Assembly (NCBI GenBank): GCA_016197205.1
Contig: JACPWG010000185.1
Coordinates: 124,001 to 188,000, forward strand
Source of the DNA: Planctomycetota bacterium
Lineage (GTDB): Bacteria > Planctomycetota > MHYJ01 > WSZJ01 > JACPWG01
Length of the DNA stretch: 64,000 nucleotides
Direction: 5' to 3'
The translations under genes were made by a program, and so were the position numbers. The stretch's first letter is position 1. Each line of letters begins with the position of its first letter. Below, one piece after another: positions 26,387-56,933 of the stretch. Below the pieces are notes generated by a model, which saw only the letters and a program-made list of their open reading frames with translations, searched no databases and was not told the DNA's origin.

Positions 26387-26432
26387 CTTCGATGGATGGC
26401 TGATGGCTGATCGCTGATTGCTGATGGACGAC
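26387..26432. repeat. Degenerate tandem repeat of GCTGAT(T/G/C)-type units
   Basis: Tandem units GGATGGCTGATGGCTGATCGCT and GATTGCTGATGG lie directly upstream of gph. They can be read as coding, but codon use and the low-complexity product argue that they are intergenic. Confidence 0.65.
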
Positions 26433-26775: not shown

Positions 26776-27555
26776 TCATTCGCCCCGGAACGCCGGCTTC
26801 CGCTTCTCGATGAACGCGGTCATCCCCTCGACCTTGTCCTTCGATTCGAACGTCACGGCCTGGGCGAGCATCTCGATCGTGAGCCCCGTGTCGAGGTCCG
26901 TCCGCGCCGAGGCGTTCAGCGTGAGCTTCGCCAGTCGCGTGGCGAGCGGGGCGCGCGCGAGCACTTTGCGGCCCAGCTCGCGCGCCGCCGCGAGCAGGTC
27001 GTCCGGGGGCGACACGACGCGCGAAACGATCCCGAGGGCCTCCGCGCGCGCCGCGTCGAACGTGTCCCCGAGGAGGACGATCTCCTTCGCGCGACCGAGG
27101 CCGACCAGCCGCGGCAGCCGCTGCGTGCCGCCCGCGCCGGGGATGATGCCGAGGCCGGTCTCCGGGAAGCCGAAGCGCGCGTTCGGGCTCGCGATGCGCA
27201 GGTCGCACGCGAGCGCCAGCTCGAAACCGCCCCCCAGCGCCCACCCGTTCACCGCCGCGATCGTCACCTTCTCGAAAGCGTCGATCGCCGCGAAGAGCCC
27301 GGTATTGATGCGCGCGAGGGCGTCGGCCTTCGTGCGCGTGCGCAGCTCCTTGATGTCCGCGCCCGCGACGAAGACCTTGTCGCCGGCGCCGGTGAGGATG
27401 ACCACGCCCACCGAGCGGTCTTCCGCGAGCTGCGCGAGGGCGGCGTGCAGCTCGTTCACGGTCTTCTTGTCCAGCGCGTTCCGCGCCTCGGGTCGGTTCA
27501 AGGTGACGACGCCGATCCCTTCACGGGCGTCGACGAGCAGGTTCTCGTAAGGCAT
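26776..27555 (-). CDS. Enoyl-CoA hydratase (crotonase family)
   Basis: 259 residues, a normal crotonase length. The first oxyanion-hole segment is VFVAGADIKEL and the second is WALGGGFELALACD with the first catalytic Glu. PETGLGIIPGAGGTQRL carries the second Glu. Having both glutamates supports hydratase rather than isomerase activity. The enzyme hydrates trans-2-enoyl-CoA in fatty-acid or butanoate metabolism. It is the last gene of an operon with the 3-hydroxyacyl-CoA dehydrogenase 25 bp upstream, the next step of the same pathway. Confidence 0.9.
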   Translation of the reverse strand: MPYENLLVDAREGIGVVTLNRPEARNALDKKTVNELHAALAQLAEDRSVGVVILTGAGDKVFVAGADIKELRTRTKADALARINTGLFAAIDAFEKVTIAAVNGWALGGGFELALACDLRIASPNARFGFPETGLGIIPGAGGTQRLPRLVGLGRAKEIVLLGDTFDAARAEALGIVSRVVSPPDDLLAAARELGRKVLARAPLATRLAKLTLNASARTDLDTGLTIEMLAQAVTFESKDKVEGMTAFIEKRKPAFRGE

Positions 27556-27580: not shown

Positions 27581-28450
27581 TCAGCTTCGGGGCGCCGCCT
27601 CGGGGTAGTCGTACACGCCGCGGCCGACCTTCTTGCCGAGCCGCCCCGCCTTGACCATTTGTTCCAGGAGAAGGTTCGGCCGGTAGGCGTCTCCGAGCGT
27701 CTGATGCAGATAGCGGAGGATCGAGAGCCGCGTGTCGAGGCCGACGAGGTCCGCCATTTCGAAGGGGCCCATCGGGTGGTTGAGCCCGAGCTTGAGCGCC
27801 TTGTCGATGTCGCGCGCGCTCGCCACGCCCTCCTGGAGCATGCGGAAGGCCTCGTTGCCGATGAGGGCGTTGATCCGGCTCGTCACGAAGCCGGGGGACT
27901 CGCGGACCTCGACCGTTTCCTTGCCCATGCGCTGCGCGACCTCGACCGTCGCGCCGAGGGTCGCGTCGTCGGTCTCCAGGCCCCGGACGACCTCCACGAG
28001 CTTCATGACGTGGACGGGATTGAAGAAGTGCATCCCGATGAACCGCCGCGGCCGGCGCGTCGCGGCGGCCATTTCCGTGATGGAGAGGGCGGAGGTGTTC
28101 GAGGCGAAGATCGTGTGCGCGGGGGCAGCGCGGTCGAGCGTCGCATAGACCTGGAGCTTGAGCTCGATCCGCTCCGGCACCGCCTCGATGACGAGGTCGG
28201 CCTCGCGCCCGCAGCGCTCGAGGTCGGCGGTCGTGCGCACGCGCTCGAGGGCCGCGCGGGCGTCCGCGTCGGTGAGCTTTCCCCGCTCGACCCCCTTGCG
28301 GAGGTTCGACTCGATCGTAGCGAGCGCGCGGCGGTGCGCCTCTTCGACGACGTCCTGGAGCAGGACCTGGTAACCGCCCAGGGCGGCGACGTGGGCGATC
28401 CCGTTCCCCATCGTCCCCGCCCCGAGCACCGCGATGGTCTGGATGGACAT
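27581..28450 (-). CDS. hbd: 3-hydroxyacyl-CoA (3-hydroxybutyryl-CoA) dehydrogenase
   Basis: 289 residues from ATG 28450, preceded by GAGGAG. An ATG at 28468, overlapping the upstream stop (TAATG), is possible. The N-terminal Rossmann loop is VLGAGTMGNGIAHVAA (G10-x-G12-x2-G15). The catalytic His is in FIGMHFFNPVHVMKLVEVV, and the C-terminal dimerisation domain has FVTSRINALIGNEAF and NHPMGPFEMADLVGLD. The family interconverts 3-hydroxyacyl-CoA and 3-ketoacyl-CoA with NAD(P). It pairs with the crotonase downstream and lies directly after the second selenoprotein candidate. Confidence 0.92.
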   Translation of the reverse strand: MSIQTIAVLGAGTMGNGIAHVAALGGYQVLLQDVVEEAHRRALATIESNLRKGVERGKLTDADARAALERVRTTADLERCGREADLVIEAVPERIELKLQVYATLDRAAPAHTIFASNTSALSITEMAAATRRPRRFIGMHFFNPVHVMKLVEVVRGLETDDATLGATVEVAQRMGKETVEVRESPGFVTSRINALIGNEAFRMLQEGVASARDIDKALKLGLNHPMGPFEMADLVGLDTRLSILRYLHQTLGDAYRPNLLLEQMVKAGRLGKKVGRGVYDYPEAAPRS

Positions 28451-28467
28451 GCGCTGCGCGCTCCTCA

Positions 28468-28911
28468 TTACTTCTGGACGGCGGCCAGGGCCTCCTTCAT
28501 CTTGGGCAGGAGCGCATCCTCGCCCGTCAGCCCGGTACTCTGGAAGATCGTGTCGCCGTTCGCGGCGAGCACGCGAAGATCGGGGATGGCCCCGACTTTG
28601 AGCGCCTCGACGGCAGCATCATCGGTCATCTTGTCCACCCGGATGCAGACGAAGTTCTTGGCCAGGTCGACGACCTGGGCGCTGGAGAGCGTGGTCGCAT
28701 CCAGCGTCTTGCAGAACCCTCAGTACCTCCAGCCGACGTCGATGAGGATGGGCCGGCCGGCGGCCTTCGCGGCCTTGAGCCCTTCTTCATACGACACCCA
28801 CGGGATCGGCGAGGACACGCCCATGTAGCGGATGTGCGGGTACGCGACCGCGCAGGCCAGCAGGAGAGCGGCGATCGTTGCGCCGAGTCCGAACTTCTTT
28901 TTTCGGGACAT
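28468..28911 (-). CDS. Thioredoxin-like selenoprotein candidate B (UxxC)
   Basis: 147 residues if TGA 28722-28720 is read as selenocysteine (U64). ATG 28911 has GGAGGT seven bases upstream. An N-terminal anchor (about 7-24, GLGATIAALLLACAVAYP) precedes a thioredoxin-like domain: strand RPILIDVGWRY, then U-G-F-C (U64 to C67), helix KTLDATTLSSAQVVDLA, a strand FVCIRVDKM, and the cis-Pro loop AIPDLRVLAANG. The reading frame after TGA is fully coding and ends at TAA 28470-28468. It is about 50% similar to the gene immediately upstream, which has TGA at the same column. A matching hairpin follows the TGA. As a plain stop, the product would be a 63-residue anchor only. Confidence 0.85.
28681..28705 (-). 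promoter_or_regulatory. Candidate bacterial SECIS hairpin in gene B
   Basis: Starts 14 bases after the TGA. It has a 6-bp stem GCTGGA/TCCAGC and an inner GCG-ACCA-CGC stem-loop, with the apical loop about 24 nt from the TGA. That is within the 16-37 nt spacing usual for bacterial SECIS elements. The same hairpin occurs at the same distance in gene A. Covariation cannot be tested with only two close copies. Confidence 0.6.
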
Positions 28912-28964
28912 CAAGCACCTCCAATACGGTTGCCTTGGGCTTCCGTCGTCGGTCGTCCGTCGTT

Positions 28965-28994
28965 GGGATTTGGGATTTGGGATTTTGGATTTTA
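28965..28994. repeat. Short GGGATTT tandem repeat
   Basis: Three to four GGGATTT(T) units lie at the 3' end of selenoprotein gene A, partly overlapping its TAA. It is a simple repeat; no function is implied. Confidence 0.8.
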
Positions 28995-29426
28995 TTTCTT
29001 AGCGATCGCCCCCTTCATCGCCTCAACGAGCGCGGCCTCCTCGATGACGCCGGCCTTCTGGAAGAGGACGTCGCCGTTCGAGGCGTAGATGCGGACGTCG
29101 GGAATGACGAACGGCTTCAGCGTGGCGATCGCCGCGTCGTCGCGCCCGCGTTCGACACGGGCACTAACAAAGCTCTTGGCCAGGTCGACGACCTGGGGGC
29201 TGGAAAGCGTGGTCGCCTCCAGCTTCTGGCAGCCCATTCAGTTCTCCGAGCCGATCTTGACCAAGAGCGGCTTCCCGCTCGACTGGCTTTCCTTCACCGC
29301 GTCTTCGTAGGGGACCCAGGCGATCGGGCTTTTTCCGCCTGCGCCGCCTCCCCGCAGAAACGGGACCGCGAAGAACGCGGCGCCAAGGACGAGGGCGGCC
29401 GCTGCGCCCAGCACGAAATTCTTCAT
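28992..29426 (-). CDS. Thioredoxin-like selenoprotein candidate A (UxxC)
   Basis: 144 residues if TGA 29240-29238 is read as selenocysteine (U63). The start ATG 29426 lies 12 bp after the amidohydrolase stop. A membrane anchor (about 4-24) is followed by PIAWVPYEDAVKESQSSGKP, strand LLVKIGSEN, then U-M-G-C (U63 to C66), QKLEATTLSSPQVVDLAKSF, and cis-Pro loop VIPDVRIYASNG. It aligns without gaps through the active site with gene B, including the shared TTLSSxQVVDLAK helix. The domain probably faces the periplasm and carries out thiol/selenol redox chemistry. If UGA were a stop, the remaining piece would lack its anchor and first redox residue. Confidence 0.85.
29199..29223 (-). promoter_or_regulatory. 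Candidate bacterial SECIS hairpin in gene A
   Basis: GCTGGA/TCCAGC stem with inner GCG-ACCA-CGC, beginning 14 bases after the TGA. Position and sequence match the hairpin in gene B except in two unpaired loop bases. Confidence 0.6.
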
Positions 29427-29438
29427 GAACGGGGTCTC

Positions 29439-30320
29439 TCAAAAACCAAGTCGGAGGGCGTTGTCTCGCAGAATCTTTTTTTTCGCATCGTCGGAGAGGG
29501 GAAGCGCGAGGAACTTGTCCAGGTTGGCCTTCATGGAGGGGACCATGGGGGCCGGCCAGTCGGTGCCCCAGAGGCACTTGTCGGCGAGGGACTCGAGCTT
29601 CGGCAGGTATTCGAGGAGGCTGCCGGGCGGGATGCTCGAAAGGTCCAGCCAGACGTTCGGGTGGCGGCGGGCGAGGAAGACGGCGGTTTCGGTCCAGAGC
29701 GGTCGGCCCGCGTGGGCGAGGAGCATGCGGAGGCGCGGGAAATCCACGGCGACGTCGTCGAGGTGGATGGGGTCGCCGTACTTCACGCGCGCGCCGGCGA
29801 AGATCGACGTGCCCGTGTGGAACATCACGGGGACCGCGGCCTCTTCGCACCGGCGGTAGAGGACTTCGAGCGCGCCGAGGCCCTCGCGATAGGCGTTCGG
29901 GTAGAAGAGCTGGTGGGGCGGGTGAATCTTCACCATGCGGATCCCGAGGTCGCCGAGGAGGCGATCGACCGCGGCGCGCGCGTCCTTCACGTGGGCCGGG
30001 TGGAGGGAGCCGACGGGGATGAGCCGGTCACGGTGGTCTTTGCAATAGGCGGAGATCCAGTCGTTGACTTCGTCCGTGAAGCCCATGACCTCGGGCGCGA
30101 CGTAGTTGACGAGCGCGGCCTTTTCGATCCCGGAGCGGTCGAGCAGGCCGAGGAAGCGGTCCGGGTTGGCCATGACGTCGACGATTTCCGCGTGATCGGC
30201 GCGGCCTCGGCTCATGCGCTCGAGGATTTCCGGACGGAGCATCCTCCACGGCTGGACGTGGACATGGAGGTCGATGACGGCATAGTCGCGGGGCACGGCG
30301 AGCTCCGGTGCGGAGGCCAT
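29439..30320 (-). CDS. Amidohydrolase 2 family metal-dependent hydrolase
   Basis: 293 residues. TIM-barrel metal site: DLHVHVQPW (H-x-H on strand 1), KIHPPHQLFY, MFHTGTS, LLAHAGRPLW and the strand-8 Asp in WGTDWPAPM. These match the ACMSD/amidohydrolase 2 family, which hydrolyses or decarboxylates small carbonyl compounds. The substrate is not predictable. It is the first gene of an apparent operon running into the two selenoprotein candidates and the beta-oxidation pair. A T8 run (29476-29483) encodes Lys-Lys-Lys near the C terminus. Confidence 0.85.
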   Translation of the reverse strand: MASAPELAVPRDYAVIDLHVHVQPWRMLRPEILERMSRGRADHAEIVDVMANPDRFLGLLDRSGIEKAALVNYVAPEVMGFTDEVNDWISAYCKDHRDRLIPVGSLHPAHVKDARAAVDRLLGDLGIRMVKIHPPHQLFYPNAYREGLGALEVLYRRCEEAAVPVMFHTGTSIFAGARVKYGDPIHLDDVAVDFPRLRMLLAHAGRPLWTETAVFLARRHPNVWLDLSSIPPGSLLEYLPKLESLADKCLWGTDWPAPMVPSMKANLDKFLALPLSDDAKKKILRDNALRLGF

Positions 30321-45871: not shown

Positions 45872-48216
45872 TTTTGGCTCGCCTCCTCGGGCAGGTCTTC
45901 GAGAAATAGCCACTGCCGCTCCAGGTCCAGCCCCTCCTTGCGCACGGTCGCCGAGGCCATCGCCCGGTGCACGCGCGCGACGCCCACGAGCGTGGCTGCA
46001 AAGGTCCGCATCTGCCCCAGCTCCTCCCTGTCCTTGGCCGTCAGCTTCGGCCCCTGCACGGCCTCGACCTGCGCGAAGATCCCTTCGGAGGTCGCGCGCA
46101 AGACCTCCGTGAGCCGGTCGCCGTCCACGAACGTCACGGCATGCGCCCCGGGTTCGAGGACGACGCCCATCTTCCGGTGCAGGTCGGAGCCGGCGATGTT
46201 CGGCGCGGCGCCCGACGCGGTCGCCCGCAGCTTGGCGGAAAGGGCGTACGAGCTGGAGAGGACGAGGTCTTTCCCAAGGACGAAGAGATGGGGTTCGAAG
46301 CCGGCGGCAATGGACTTCGATAAGTCGAGGGCGTAGACGGTCACGCCGTCGACCTCTTTTTTCTCGAACGTGGGCGGGGCCGGCGGCGCGGGCGCGTTCG
46401 GCCGCCGGCTGCCGGCGCCTCCCTGCAGGAAGCCGGCGAGGGCGGGAAGCAGGTTCTGGACGCCGCGGATGGCCGCGTCCGGGTCGTCGCTGGCGACGGC
46501 GATCGCGCCGCTCGGGATGGGGAGGTCCTTGATCTCCGCGTCGGGGGCGTGGACGGTGAGCGGGACGGCGGCGCCGAGGATCCCGGTCATCCGGCCGCGG
46601 AAGTGCGGCGCGAGGTCGGTGTTGATCGGGTCCAGGATGGCCGCGCAGGCCGCTCGCCGCTCCTTGATCATGTCGGCATAGCGCGGGTCGCGGCCCAGGC
46701 GCGGGTCGGTCCGGACCTGCTTCTCGAGGTCGTCGGTCTGCGCGTTCATGCCCGCGACCACGTTCCGAAGCTGCGCCCAGAGGTAGTCCCAGGAGGTTTC
46801 GTGGATCGCCGTGTAGCCGACCGCGTCCGCCGGGACGAGCCGGGCCAGCCCCGGGTCGCCCGCGGGCAGGGCCGGTGCGCCGGCTGCGAGGTACGAGCGG
46901 CGTTCCACCTTGATGCCCTGGTGCAGGTGCTGCAGGGCCTCGATGCGCACGTACTCGGGCTGTGTCGTCTGGGGCTCGAGCGACTCGCGCATCTGCTGGA
47001 GCGTGCCGAGGGTAGAGGCCGGAATGCCGAGAAGCGGGAGCCGCGCCGGATTTTCGAGTTGCTTGAGGAGCGGCACCACGCGCTCGCGCAGCGCGTTCTG
47101 CCCATGGACGAGGTCGAGGAAGGAAAGGCCGGTCGTTGCCGGTTGCACCTGCTCGCGCAGGTACTTGAAGCTTTCCCCGTCGGCGAGGTTCTTGCCCGCC
47201 CCTTTGGCGTCGAACAGGGTCGCTGCGGCGCGCAGGAGGGCGTCGTCGGGTCCGAAGGCGACGACGAAGTATTCGCCGAGGAAGCCGAAGTGGAGGGTGA
47301 GACTCTTCGCGCAGAGGGCCTTGGCAAGCTCCGCGACGGCCTCGGGCGGACCGGGGACCTCGGCCATGCGTTCCTGCAGTTCCTCCTCGCGTACGCGGTC
47401 GCCGATTTTGAAGGAAAAGCGGTGGAAGGCGTGAGAGCCGAGTTCGATTTTCGCGTACAGCTTGTCGAAGGTGATCGGGACGGCGCTGGTGGGGACGGGT
47501 GGGAGGCCGGCGGCCTCGGCGTTGCCGTCGCCGTCGGCGCGGGCCTTGGCGGCCTCGTCCACGGCCTTCTTCGCCTTTTCGATGAGCTTGTAGACGAGGG
47601 CGTCGAACTTGGCGGGGTCGGGGACGCGGGCGGCCAGGAGGACGGAGGGGAGGTTGGCGCGGCGGACGGACTCGACCCAGCCGGGGACGAGCGTGGCGCG
47701 CCACTGGGAGAGCTCCTCGTCTTCGCTGGTCCCCGGGGGCGCGGCGCCGGGGGGCAGGATGAGGCCGGCGTACAGGGCGGCCGCAGCGAGGTTGGCGCCG
47801 TTCACCGACGCATCGCCGCCGACGGCCATGCACACCTCCTCGTCGAAGGCGTCGGCGAGGGCGTCGAGGGTCTCCTGGACCTCGGGCGGCATCTTGGCCT
47901 TCTCCGGTTCGACTTCTTTTTTGAAGGCCGCATCGATTTTTTTTGCCTCTTCCGTGTCCATCACCTGGTGATAGGCGCGGGAGTCGCGGACCGTGCGCCA
48001 GAGGGCGCCGGCGTGGAGGAGGGCGAAGTAGCCTTCGCAGTCGTCGGGGAGGAAGCGGCTGAACCCGAGGAGTGCGCTCTTCTGACCCGAGGAGAGGGGT
48101 TCCTGGGGGACCCAGCCGAGGAGTCTGGCCGGGGAGAGGAAGTGGCGGACGAGGAAGATGCCGGCGACGAGCACGGTGGCGGCGACCGCGGCGCCGATGA
48201 GGAGCTTTTTCTGCAT
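45868..48216 (-). CDS. Large exported or anchored protein of unknown function
   Basis: 782 residues from ATG 48216 (GGGGGACGG upstream). An N-terminal anchor is about 4-24 (KLLIGAAVAATVLVAGIFLV). The mature part has two related halves built of alternating alpha/beta segments and phrases such as LVPADAVGYTAIHETSWDY and FLPDDCEGYFALLHAG, reminiscent of DUF3352-type secreted proteins of Planctomycetes. It has no catalytic motif. It overlaps the CvpA-like gene by 4 bp, so both are probably co-expressed. T8 (47937-47944) and T6 runs encode Lys-Lys. Confidence 0.6.
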   Translation of the reverse strand: MQKKLLIGAAVAATVLVAGIFLVRHFLSPARLLGWVPQEPLSSGQKSALLGFSRFLPDDCEGYFALLHAGALWRTVRDSRAYHQVMDTEEAKKIDAAFKKEVEPEKAKMPPEVQETLDALADAFDEEVCMAVGGDASVNGANLAAAALYAGLILPPGAAPPGTSEDEELSQWRATLVPGWVESVRRANLPSVLLAARVPDPAKFDALVYKLIEKAKKAVDEAAKARADGDGNAEAAGLPPVPTSAVPITFDKLYAKIELGSHAFHRFSFKIGDRVREEELQERMAEVPGPPEAVAELAKALCAKSLTLHFGFLGEYFVVAFGPDDALLRAAATLFDAKGAGKNLADGESFKYLREQVQPATTGLSFLDLVHGQNALRERVVPLLKQLENPARLPLLGIPASTLGTLQQMRESLEPQTTQPEYVRIEALQHLHQGIKVERRSYLAAGAPALPAGDPGLARLVPADAVGYTAIHETSWDYLWAQLRNVVAGMNAQTDDLEKQVRTDPRLGRDPRYADMIKERRAACAAILDPINTDLAPHFRGRMTGILGAAVPLTVHAPDAEIKDLPIPSGAIAVASDDPDAAIRGVQNLLPALAGFLQGGAGSRRPNAPAPPAPPTFEKKEVDGVTVYALDLSKSIAAGFEPHLFVLGKDLVLSSSYALSAKLRATASGAAPNIAGSDLHRKMGVVLEPGAHAVTFVDGDRLTEVLRATSEGIFAQVEAVQGPKLTAKDREELGQMRTFAATLVGVARVHRAMASATVRKEGLDLERQWLFLEDLPEEASQK

Positions 48217-48365
48217 GAACCGTCCCCCTGTCAGCAAGGCCGTGCGAAACCGCGATGAGCGGATTGTAGCCGGGGCGAAGGCTCGGAAGCAAGACCTGGT
48301 GTGACCATTCCTTGGGAGGGTCGTTTCGCCACGGAGACACGGACTCACCGAGACACGGAGGACGC

Positions 48366-48572
48366 ACGGAGAGGCTGATGCATCCGGAGGCGGTCTTCCG
48401 GGGAGCCCCGGTGTCACGGTGGTGAACCGTCACCGGCACGCTTCGGGCGCTTGCCTACGCCGCCCGCCTCCCTCCCCGCTACTGCGGCAGGTACTTCTCG
48501 AACAGCGTCTTGTTCGTGGCGCAGAGGTAGGCGTCCTCGGCCCGGATCACGCCCTGCTGCAAGTAGTCCAGC
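48366..48572. repeat. 207-bp direct repeat, copy A
   Basis: Matches 50811-51017 over the full 207 bp. Differences are concentrated in the first 75 bases, and the last ~95 bases are identical. The matched part includes the last 31 codons of pilT and its 3' flank. Confidence 0.9.
48479..48572 (-). pseudogene. Duplicated 3' end of pilT
   Basis: Encodes the last ~30 residues of the PilT at 50924, ending KTLFEKYLPQ-stop, with no upstream pilT sequence and no start. It is a by-product of the 207-bp duplication. Confidence 0.88.
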
Positions 48573-48693
48573 GCAGTGGGCCCGGCACCCGCGGCGCGCG
48601 TGACGAGGCCCTGCATCCGCCGCCAACCCCTCGCTCTGGCCGAGTAGAAGCCATCGCAGGGAGTTCATACCCGCACCTGCCCGGACCTCCGGG

Positions 48694-49983
48694 CTACAGA
48701 CAGGACCATGGCAAGGCCGTTACCCGGTCGGCGATTTCCAGGGGCACGGACGTGCGGCAGATGACGTATCCGTGCGCTGCGGCCTTGGGGTGGTCCTCCA
48801 GAAAGGCCAGGAGGTGGCGCGCGTCCGCGTGCGTCGGATGGTCAGTCCACTTCACCTCGATGGGAATGTAGCGGCCGTCCCGCTCCACGATGAAGTCCAC
48901 CTCGGCGCCGGCCTTCGTCCGGAAGTAGTTCAGCCGACCGGACTCCAGGTAGCCCAGGCGTTTCCACAATTCGATGCCGACCCACTGCTCGAAGAGCGGG
49001 CCCGGATTCGCGCTGACCGCGTCCGGCGAGAGCGGGAGACGCGCCGTCGCGTTGCGCACGCCGAGATCGAAAAAAAGAAAGCGTTCGGTGGAGAGCAGGT
49101 TCTTGCGCGGGCTGCCCGAAAATGCGGTGACGCGAAAGCCCAGGAACATGTCCTCCAGCAACTGATAGTAGTTCTTGATCGTGGGGACGGAGACGCCCGC
49201 CTCCTGGGAGAGCGCGGAGTAGTTCAGGATGTGGCCCGACTCGGCCGCCGCGAGCTGGAGGAATCGGGCGAACGCTCCCCAGTCCTTGATCAAGGCCTCG
49301 CGCCGCAGCTCCTCTTCCAGGTGAACCATCGCGTATGCGCGCAAGAGGTCCGGGCGGTCTTCGGGCCCGGCGGTGGCCACGCCCGGCAGGTCGCCGAAGA
49401 GCAGGCGCTCGACGAGCGGGCTCGGTGGGAAGTGTGGCGATGCGGGGGGAGGCCGCGGCCGGCCACGGGCGGAGGCGGGGGCGGATCCGGCAGGAGCGGA
49501 CAGGGGCAGTGGAGGGTCCACGCGCAGGGTCGACGTCTCCCCGGCGGGTACGGGTCGTTCGGCCAGGACGAGGGGATACAGGTGGTGCAGGAAGGATCGA
49601 CCGGGGAGGAGGTTGGCGCCGGTCCGGCGCAGCTTGCGCGCCGAGCTGCCGCACAGGACGAATCGCCAGCGCTGCTTGTCGGAGTCGTAGAGGTGTTGGA
49701 CGGCGTCGAACAGGGCGGGGACGTTTTGTGCCTCGTCCACGACGACGACCGTCGGCCCCTCGGAGGTGGGGAGGGCCCGGCAGAGGCCGACGAGCCGATC
49801 CGGGTCGCGCAGGAATTCCGAGCGCTCGGCGGGCCGGGCGAGGTCGATCCAGACCGCCGGCTCGGGCAGGACCTGCCGCAGCAGGGTCGACTTGCCGGTC
49901 TGGCGCGCGCCGAACACCAAGTGGACGTAGGGCGTCGCGAGCTTCTTCCGCCAGACCGGCTCGATCCAACGACCAAACAGCAT
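48694..49983 (-). CDS. AAA ATPase with DUF4143 domain
   Basis: 429 residues. Walker A GARQTGKS is near 27-34, Walker B is VVVVDEAQNVP, and sensor 1 lies in FVLCGSSARKLRR. This AAA_14 domain is followed by a DUF4143 C terminus (LEEELRREALIKDWGAFARFL, GVSVPTIKNYYQLLEDMF) and an Mrr-like end (NYFRTKAGAEVDFIVERDG, IPIEVKWTD) with nuclease-like Asp/Glu/Lys residues. These proteins are common near mobile or toxin-antitoxin loci; their activity is unclear. A Pro/Ala-rich insertion lies at about 150-190. It sits inside the segment bounded by the 207-bp repeats. Confidence 0.88.
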   Translation of the reverse strand: MLFGRWIEPVWRKKLATPYVHLVFGARQTGKSTLLRQVLPEPAVWIDLARPAERSEFLRDPDRLVGLCRALPTSEGPTVVVVDEAQNVPALFDAVQHLYDSDKQRWRFVLCGSSARKLRRTGANLLPGRSFLHHLYPLVLAERPVPAGETSTLRVDPPLPLSAPAGSAPASARGRPRPPPASPHFPPSPLVERLLFGDLPGVATAGPEDRPDLLRAYAMVHLEEELRREALIKDWGAFARFLQLAAAESGHILNYSALSQEAGVSVPTIKNYYQLLEDMFLGFRVTAFSGSPRKNLLSTERFLFFDLGVRNATARLPLSPDAVSANPGPLFEQWVGIELWKRLGYLESGRLNYFRTKAGAEVDFIVERDGRYIPIEVKWTDHPTHADARHLLAFLEDHPKAAAHGYVICRTSVPLEIADRVTALPWSCL

Positions 49984-56598: not shown

Positions 56599-56933
56599 CG
56601 TGTCGCCTCCGTGGCCGAGGGAGTGGGGTTGTGCGCGCCTTGGCGGGCGCTCGCCCGAACGCGTCATGATACTCCACCGCCCCGCCCGCCGCCAGCCCTT
56701 CGCGCGGCCCGCAAATGCAGCGGCCAAGTTTTATGCGGCCCTTATGCCGGAGTTGGTTAGATAGCGTGCTGTCGCCGGGGCGCGGCCCGGCGTGTTTCGC
56801 GGAAAGCGTCGCCGAGTCTCGCCGCGACGGGAACGGGGGAACCAACGACCCGGGGCGAATCGCCGGATGGCGTAGGGCCACGTCCTCGGCCCGAGCCCGT
56901 CAGCTAACCCCGCAGGCGTCGAGGAGTACAACC
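56599..56933. other. Divergent intergenic region with the riboswitch
   Basis: 335 bp between the kdpD start and the transporter start. Its right part is the riboswitch; the left part (56600-56800) should hold both promoters, though none is clear. Confidence 0.6.
56801..56926 (+). ncRNA. ydaO/yuaA-type c-di-AMP riboswitch
   Basis: Conserved blocks in order: CGCCGAGTC, CGACGGGAACGGGGGAACCA, GGGGCGAAT, GTAGGG, then CGAGCCCGTCAGCTAACC and CGCAGGCGTC, ending at a GAGGAG RBS. These match the known ydaO consensus closely. The element senses cyclic di-AMP and normally turns off potassium uptake genes. Here it lies directly before a KimA-like transporter, exactly the arrangement known in Bacillus. 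Confidence 0.92.

Follow-up and report, generated by a model that had tools for sequence, protein, structure and literature searches.

Two adjacent genes of a planctomycete genome very probably both encode selenoproteins, thioredoxin-fold proteins in which an in-frame UGA would be read as selenocysteine (Sec) at the first position of the active-site motif. The genes, P0002 (gene 1) and P0001 (gene 2), lie in a stretch of 64,000 nucleotides, referred to here as the window, from a Planctomycetota MAG (G000; 9.1 Mb, 197 contigs, approximately 91% complete). The position of the UGA, the Sec machinery of the host, a hairpin downstream of the codon, the conservation of the site and the fold of the products jointly argue for this reading. 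Each gene contains one TGA and is otherwise open throughout, and both TGAs share one aligned column with the TGA of the nearest relative (G001). An earlier sequence-only reading had described adjacent paralogues whose CxxC motifs both begin, in one aligned column, with TGA (U-M-G-C and U-G-F-C); the alignment bears this out, and the residue numbers it gave (U63 and U64) are correct when counted from ATG. The features of the locus are collected in Table 1.

Table 1. Features of the selenoprotein gene pair and its surroundings (positions in the window unless a contig of G000 is given)
Feature	Position	Strand	Remarks
Gene 1 (P0002), putative selenoprotein gene	28992..29426	-	144 aa; N-terminal hydrophobic segment and Thioredoxin_7; site U-M-G-C; PF13899 9e-12
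Gene 1, predicted Sec63 codon (in-frame TGA)	29238..29240	-	Sequence and alignment
Gene 1, SECIS-like hairpin	29199..29223	-	UGA to apical loop 24 nt; -14.5 kcal/mol; p=0.02 vs synonymous recodings
Gene 2 (P0001), putative selenoprotein gene	28468..28911	-	147 aa from ATG; N-terminal hydrophobic segment and Thioredoxin_7; site U-G-F-C; cis-Pro motif IPD; PF13899 1.5e-12, PF00085 1.4e-6
Gene 2, predicted Sec64 codon (Sec65 counting from TTG; in-frame TGA)	28720..28722	-	Sequence and alignment
Gene 2, SECIS-like hairpin	28680..28706	-	UGA to apical loop 24 nt; -15.9 kcal/mol; p=0.01 vs synonymous recodings
GGAGG, Shine-Dalgarno-like, ahead of gene 2 ATG	28918..28922	-	Seen in sequence
Amidohydrolase (PF04909), upstream	29439..30320	-	TGA is its true stop; syntenic in G001
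3-Hydroxyacyl-CoA dehydrogenase, downstream ORF	27581..28468	-	Start likelier at 28450 (G001 comparison); syntenic in G001
Enoyl-CoA hydratase, next in same gene run	26776..27555	-	Profile match
Putative Sec-DsbD of G000	G000:C131:123102-123743		C-terminal Thioredoxin_7 reads FTAFT-U-T-N-C

Coding sequence had been proposed to run on past the TGA, and features of the genes agree. GC3 is 0.84-0.88 on either side of the codon in both genes, with like codon statistics on the two flanks; position 2 is the most conserved codon position between the paralogues; and their amino-acid identity is 42% 5' and 55% 3' of the TGA, the complete read-through proteins being 49% identical and alignable at both ends. 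In a homology-free codon-usage scan of 1.64 Mb of G000, only 20 in-frame TGAs had coding signal on either flank, three of which lie in the window (the TGAs of genes 1 and 2 and the upstream amidohydrolase's own stop); this strict scan gives a lower bound, as it passed over several known positives, such as selD and a gene on contig C196. The TGAs might be thought ordinary stops or sequencing or assembly errors, in decaying or mis-sequenced genes that yield fragments of 62-63 aa or nothing, and both the division of the MAG into 197 contigs and the frequency of TGA as a stop lend this some plausibility. The unbroken coding signal, the presence of TGA at one and the same codon in both paralogues, in a relative whose genome was assembled independently and in dozens of homologues, and a complete Sec machinery in the genome render it extremely improbable, in support of the earlier judgement that error or decay was very unlikely.

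This machinery comprises selA (541 bits), selB (333 bits; cut-off 242), selD (399 bits) and a tRNA-Sec gene, selC, with a TCA anticodon (80.6 bits), each above its curated cut-off, and selD itself carries an in-frame TGA (AGUACK). All four components that the sequence-only reading had proposed to look for are present, and an objection from missing machinery fails. TGA is the commonest stop in G000 and ends 407 of 739 scored genes; reassignment of the codon was rejected for this reason.

A SECIS-like hairpin lies approximately 14-41 nt 3' of the UGA in the TGA genes. Its stability was compared with that of synonymous recodings of each peptide: the TGA genes folded more stably than their recodings, with a mean z of -1.77 (p<0.05 in 14 of 29), and the Cys homologues had a mean z of -0.06 (p<0.05 in 1 of 18), a difference with a Mann-Whitney p of 1e-4. 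Dinucleotide shuffles of the 49-nt piece gave z -1.45 for gene 1 and -1.35 for gene 2. With the spacing and energies listed in Table 1, a 4-nt loop and 10 pairs plus a bulge, both window hairpins lie within the published bSECIS ranges (UGA-to-loop distance 16-37 nt, loop 3-9 nt, stem 4-16 bp, MFE <= -7.5; PMC13188914). A published rule also places a G within the first two apical-loop positions; the predicted loop is ACCA in both window hairpins, and a G comes first only with the closing G-C pair opened. RNAalifold returned no consensus structure for the mixed SECIS alignment, probably owing to two stem registers among the members. When members were split by their Pro or Ser codon, covariation supported the stem in the Pro-type subset (95.8% of cells paired; 3 of 500 shuffles) and picked out no single register in the Ser-type subset, which includes the window genes.

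These hairpins also bear on whether a suppressor tRNA or a wider code change causes the UGA to be read as Cys or Trp instead of as Sec. Homologues do function with Cys at the UGA column, but the hairpins stand behind in-frame TGAs and none stands behind the homologues' Cys codons; SelA, SelD and SelB are present, the tRNA-Sec has a UCA anticodon, and more than half of the scored genes end in TGA. We consider Cys or Trp insertion very improbable, and selenocysteine is the preferred reading.

Conservation of the site extends through the phylum. Among the matches listed, at least 42 homologues in 24 Planctomycetota genomes carry the in-frame TGA, and the remaining listed matches are stop-free. 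In the aligned homologues the first CxxC column holds Sec-TGA or Cys and nothing else, and the UxxC/CxxC columns are the sole invariant ones in a 38-row alignment from approximately two dozen genomes. The homologue search suggested by the sequence-only reading thus found Cys at the U63/U64 column in other members and no homologue ending at the TGA; all of those seen have Sec or Cys there and run on beyond it. One further Trx7-type protein of G000 (C148:8681-8848) carries an in-frame TGA twice, at a spacing of four codons (FRUVTUPGC).

The nearest relative, JACRIP010000479.1 ('Planctomycetota bacterium NC_groundwater_1806_Pr3_B-0.1um_71_12'; G001), belongs to the window's own family and keeps the gene order amidohydrolase, single Trx7 selenoprotein, 3-hydroxyacyl-CoA dehydrogenase, with the TGA at the same codon; a pattern scan of genome contigs for relatives recovered this contig and little else. 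In the tree, P0001, P0002 and the G001 protein form a clade (98/90) whose internal branching is not settled; its sister is a tandem pair in G008 (98/92), the two members of which cluster together (99/97). The window and G008 pairs are separate in the tree, and tandem duplication therefore occurred at least two times. The window pair would have arisen by local duplication of a gene of which a sister genus has one copy at that locus, or the relative would have lost one copy. A tandem selenoprotein pair, as first described, is present, but its supposed rarity must be softened, as at least four related genomes of the same phylum (G008, G003, G091 and G124) have Trx7 genes in tandem that both carry an in-frame TGA. 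The G008 pair (G008:C3:40000-59000) has no signal sequences and adjoins a Cys-type DsbH-like protein (46901-48964).

The spacer of the two window genes holds 4.3 copies of a TTGGGAT heptamer (28963-28992), low in GC relative to the 70.5% overall; arrays resembling this repeat occur at 26395, 39454 and 50495. Elsewhere in the window a c-di-AMP riboswitch (RF00379, 81.7 bits) was located at 56800-56933 on the plus strand.

The fold of the products is that of thioredoxin. An AlphaFold2 model of P0001 has a mean pLDDT of 87 (core approximately 97), and its best solved matches by Foldseek are Chlamydia DsbH (2ju5, 2.8e-7) and the C-terminal (gamma) domain of DsbD (1.5e-6). The two proteins score 47.9 and 45.4 bits with PF13899, above its Pfam gathering cut-off of 27, and both also exceed the cut-off of PF03190 (Thioredox_DsbH). 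Named families at NCBIfam are matched below their cut-offs: disulfide reductase DsbH (NF043050) at 19.3 and 25.9 bits against 190, a resemblance only; the Trx7/PDZ selenoprotein (NF041199) at 30.9 and 26.3 bits against 300, with no PDZ domain in the window proteins; and the rhodanese/DsbD fusion TsoB (NF045694) at 37 and 30 bits against 805. A membrane anchor had been ascribed to each protein; the hydrophobic N-terminal segment is found in both, but instead of anchoring the protein it may be a signal peptide that is cleaved off (possible sites A-V-A↓Y in one copy, A-L-A↓Y in the relative). One copy has a weak lipobox (LLAC).

A mechanism can be proposed on this basis. The UGA would be decoded by tRNA-Sec(UCA) and SelB, aided by the hairpin directly downstream, and the products would be two exported or membrane-tethered thioredoxin-fold proteins with the Sec of UxxC as nucleophile. 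Their most likely role would be that of reductases of the cell envelope, as for DsbH or DsbD-gamma: the Sec would attack a substrate disulfide, the resolving Cys would then release the substrate, and the oxidised U-x-x-C would be re-reduced by the DsbD of G000, whose gamma-type domain reads U-T-N-C. We infer Sec incorporation in the cell, the envelope location and the reductase direction, and DsbD is the presumed electron donor by analogy. Identification of the window proteins as DsbD-fed envelope reductases is somewhat favoured. A different role for the selenoproteins, such as the handling of peroxide or metal(loid)s in connection with the acyl-CoA operon, carries lesser but considerable weight: the neighbours that are conserved encode an amidohydrolase and enzymes of the beta-oxidation type and include no dsb genes, and the differing xx dipeptides (MG and GF) suggest differing potentials, whereas the fold and CxxC/cis-Pro anatomy are those of DsbH/DsbD-gamma reductases and G000 has a Sec-type DsbD. 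The neighbours leave the role unexplained and may perhaps be operon company only.

The genomic setting is a stronger point than the tandem pair itself. At least 23 selenoprotein genes were seen in G000, at least 21 of them beyond the window pair, a lower bound from a handful of families and a partial scan: nine Trx7, nine AhpC/TlpA-like, one TlpA-like (C99:6497), a thioredoxin, AhpD/CMD (CEYU), DsbD and SelD. The only DsbD_TM protein found combines DsbD_N, DsbD_TM and Thioredoxin_7 with TGA at the first CxxC position, and the best classical thioredoxin match likewise carries TGA (UPVC). Because this gene set includes both the best classical thioredoxin match and the only DsbD found, the thiol relay of the envelope may be selenium-based, and electrons would pass along it to the two window proteins, predicted to be exported, as its last members. 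The fuller proposal, that the thiol-disulfide relay of this lineage runs on selenium from cytosol to envelope (Sec thioredoxin UPVC, Sec DsbD UTNC, duplicated exported Trx7 pair UGFC/UMGC) and that its selenoproteome is among the larger bacterial ones, is advanced tentatively, as somewhat short of probable. The highest published counts are 57 and 63, and the groups described as richest in a recent review are Thermodesulfobacteriota, Synergistota and Clostridia (PMC13188914); the locus points to a selenoprotein-rich branch within Planctomycetota. Standard gene finding would end both window proteins ahead of the active-site Cys, and the only DsbD of G000 would be cut short in the same way. The clean Sec/Sec paralogue pair with its single-copy relative lends itself to the question of why envelope reductases retain Sec and duplicate it.

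Thioredoxin-like selenoproteins with a UxxC site have been described before. Sec is likewise first in UxxC in described families (Trx PF00085, thiol:disulfide interchange PF13098, SaoT, HUIPC; PMC13188914), and the window pair represents at most a new subfamily, because PF13899 is absent from the 119 selenoprotein families catalogued in the literature (PMC13188914) and the nearest named ones, Trx7/PDZ and TsoB, are matched below cut-off; Trx7/PDZ has CxxU where the window genes have UxxC. Our literature search found no paper on planctomycete Trx7 selenoproteins. With PF13899/PF03190 proteins the pair shares passage of both models' cut-offs, a CxxC-type site and the cis-Pro loop, but it has Sec for the first active-site Cys and is stand-alone, tandem and predicted to be exported. 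Chlamydia DsbH (2ju5) and DsbD gamma (2fwe, 1uc7) resemble the window proteins as best structure matches and in having a single thioredoxin domain that is exported, as predicted for the window proteins, and differ in their approximately 20% identity and in Cys where the window proteins have Sec, the latter also scoring under the NCBIfam DsbH cut-off. As in the Tso/SAO selenoprotein operons (PMC13188914), several selenoprotein genes stand abreast in one operon, although here they are two paralogues of one family in an acyl-CoA/amidohydrolase run, with no adjoining rhodanese/DsbD fusion. Within the phylum, full Sec machinery has been reported for the Porphyra-associated Planctomycetes P1 and P2 (PMC4807772) and is present in G000 too, with six putative antioxidant selenoproteins in P1 (PMC4807772) compared with at least 23 in G000.
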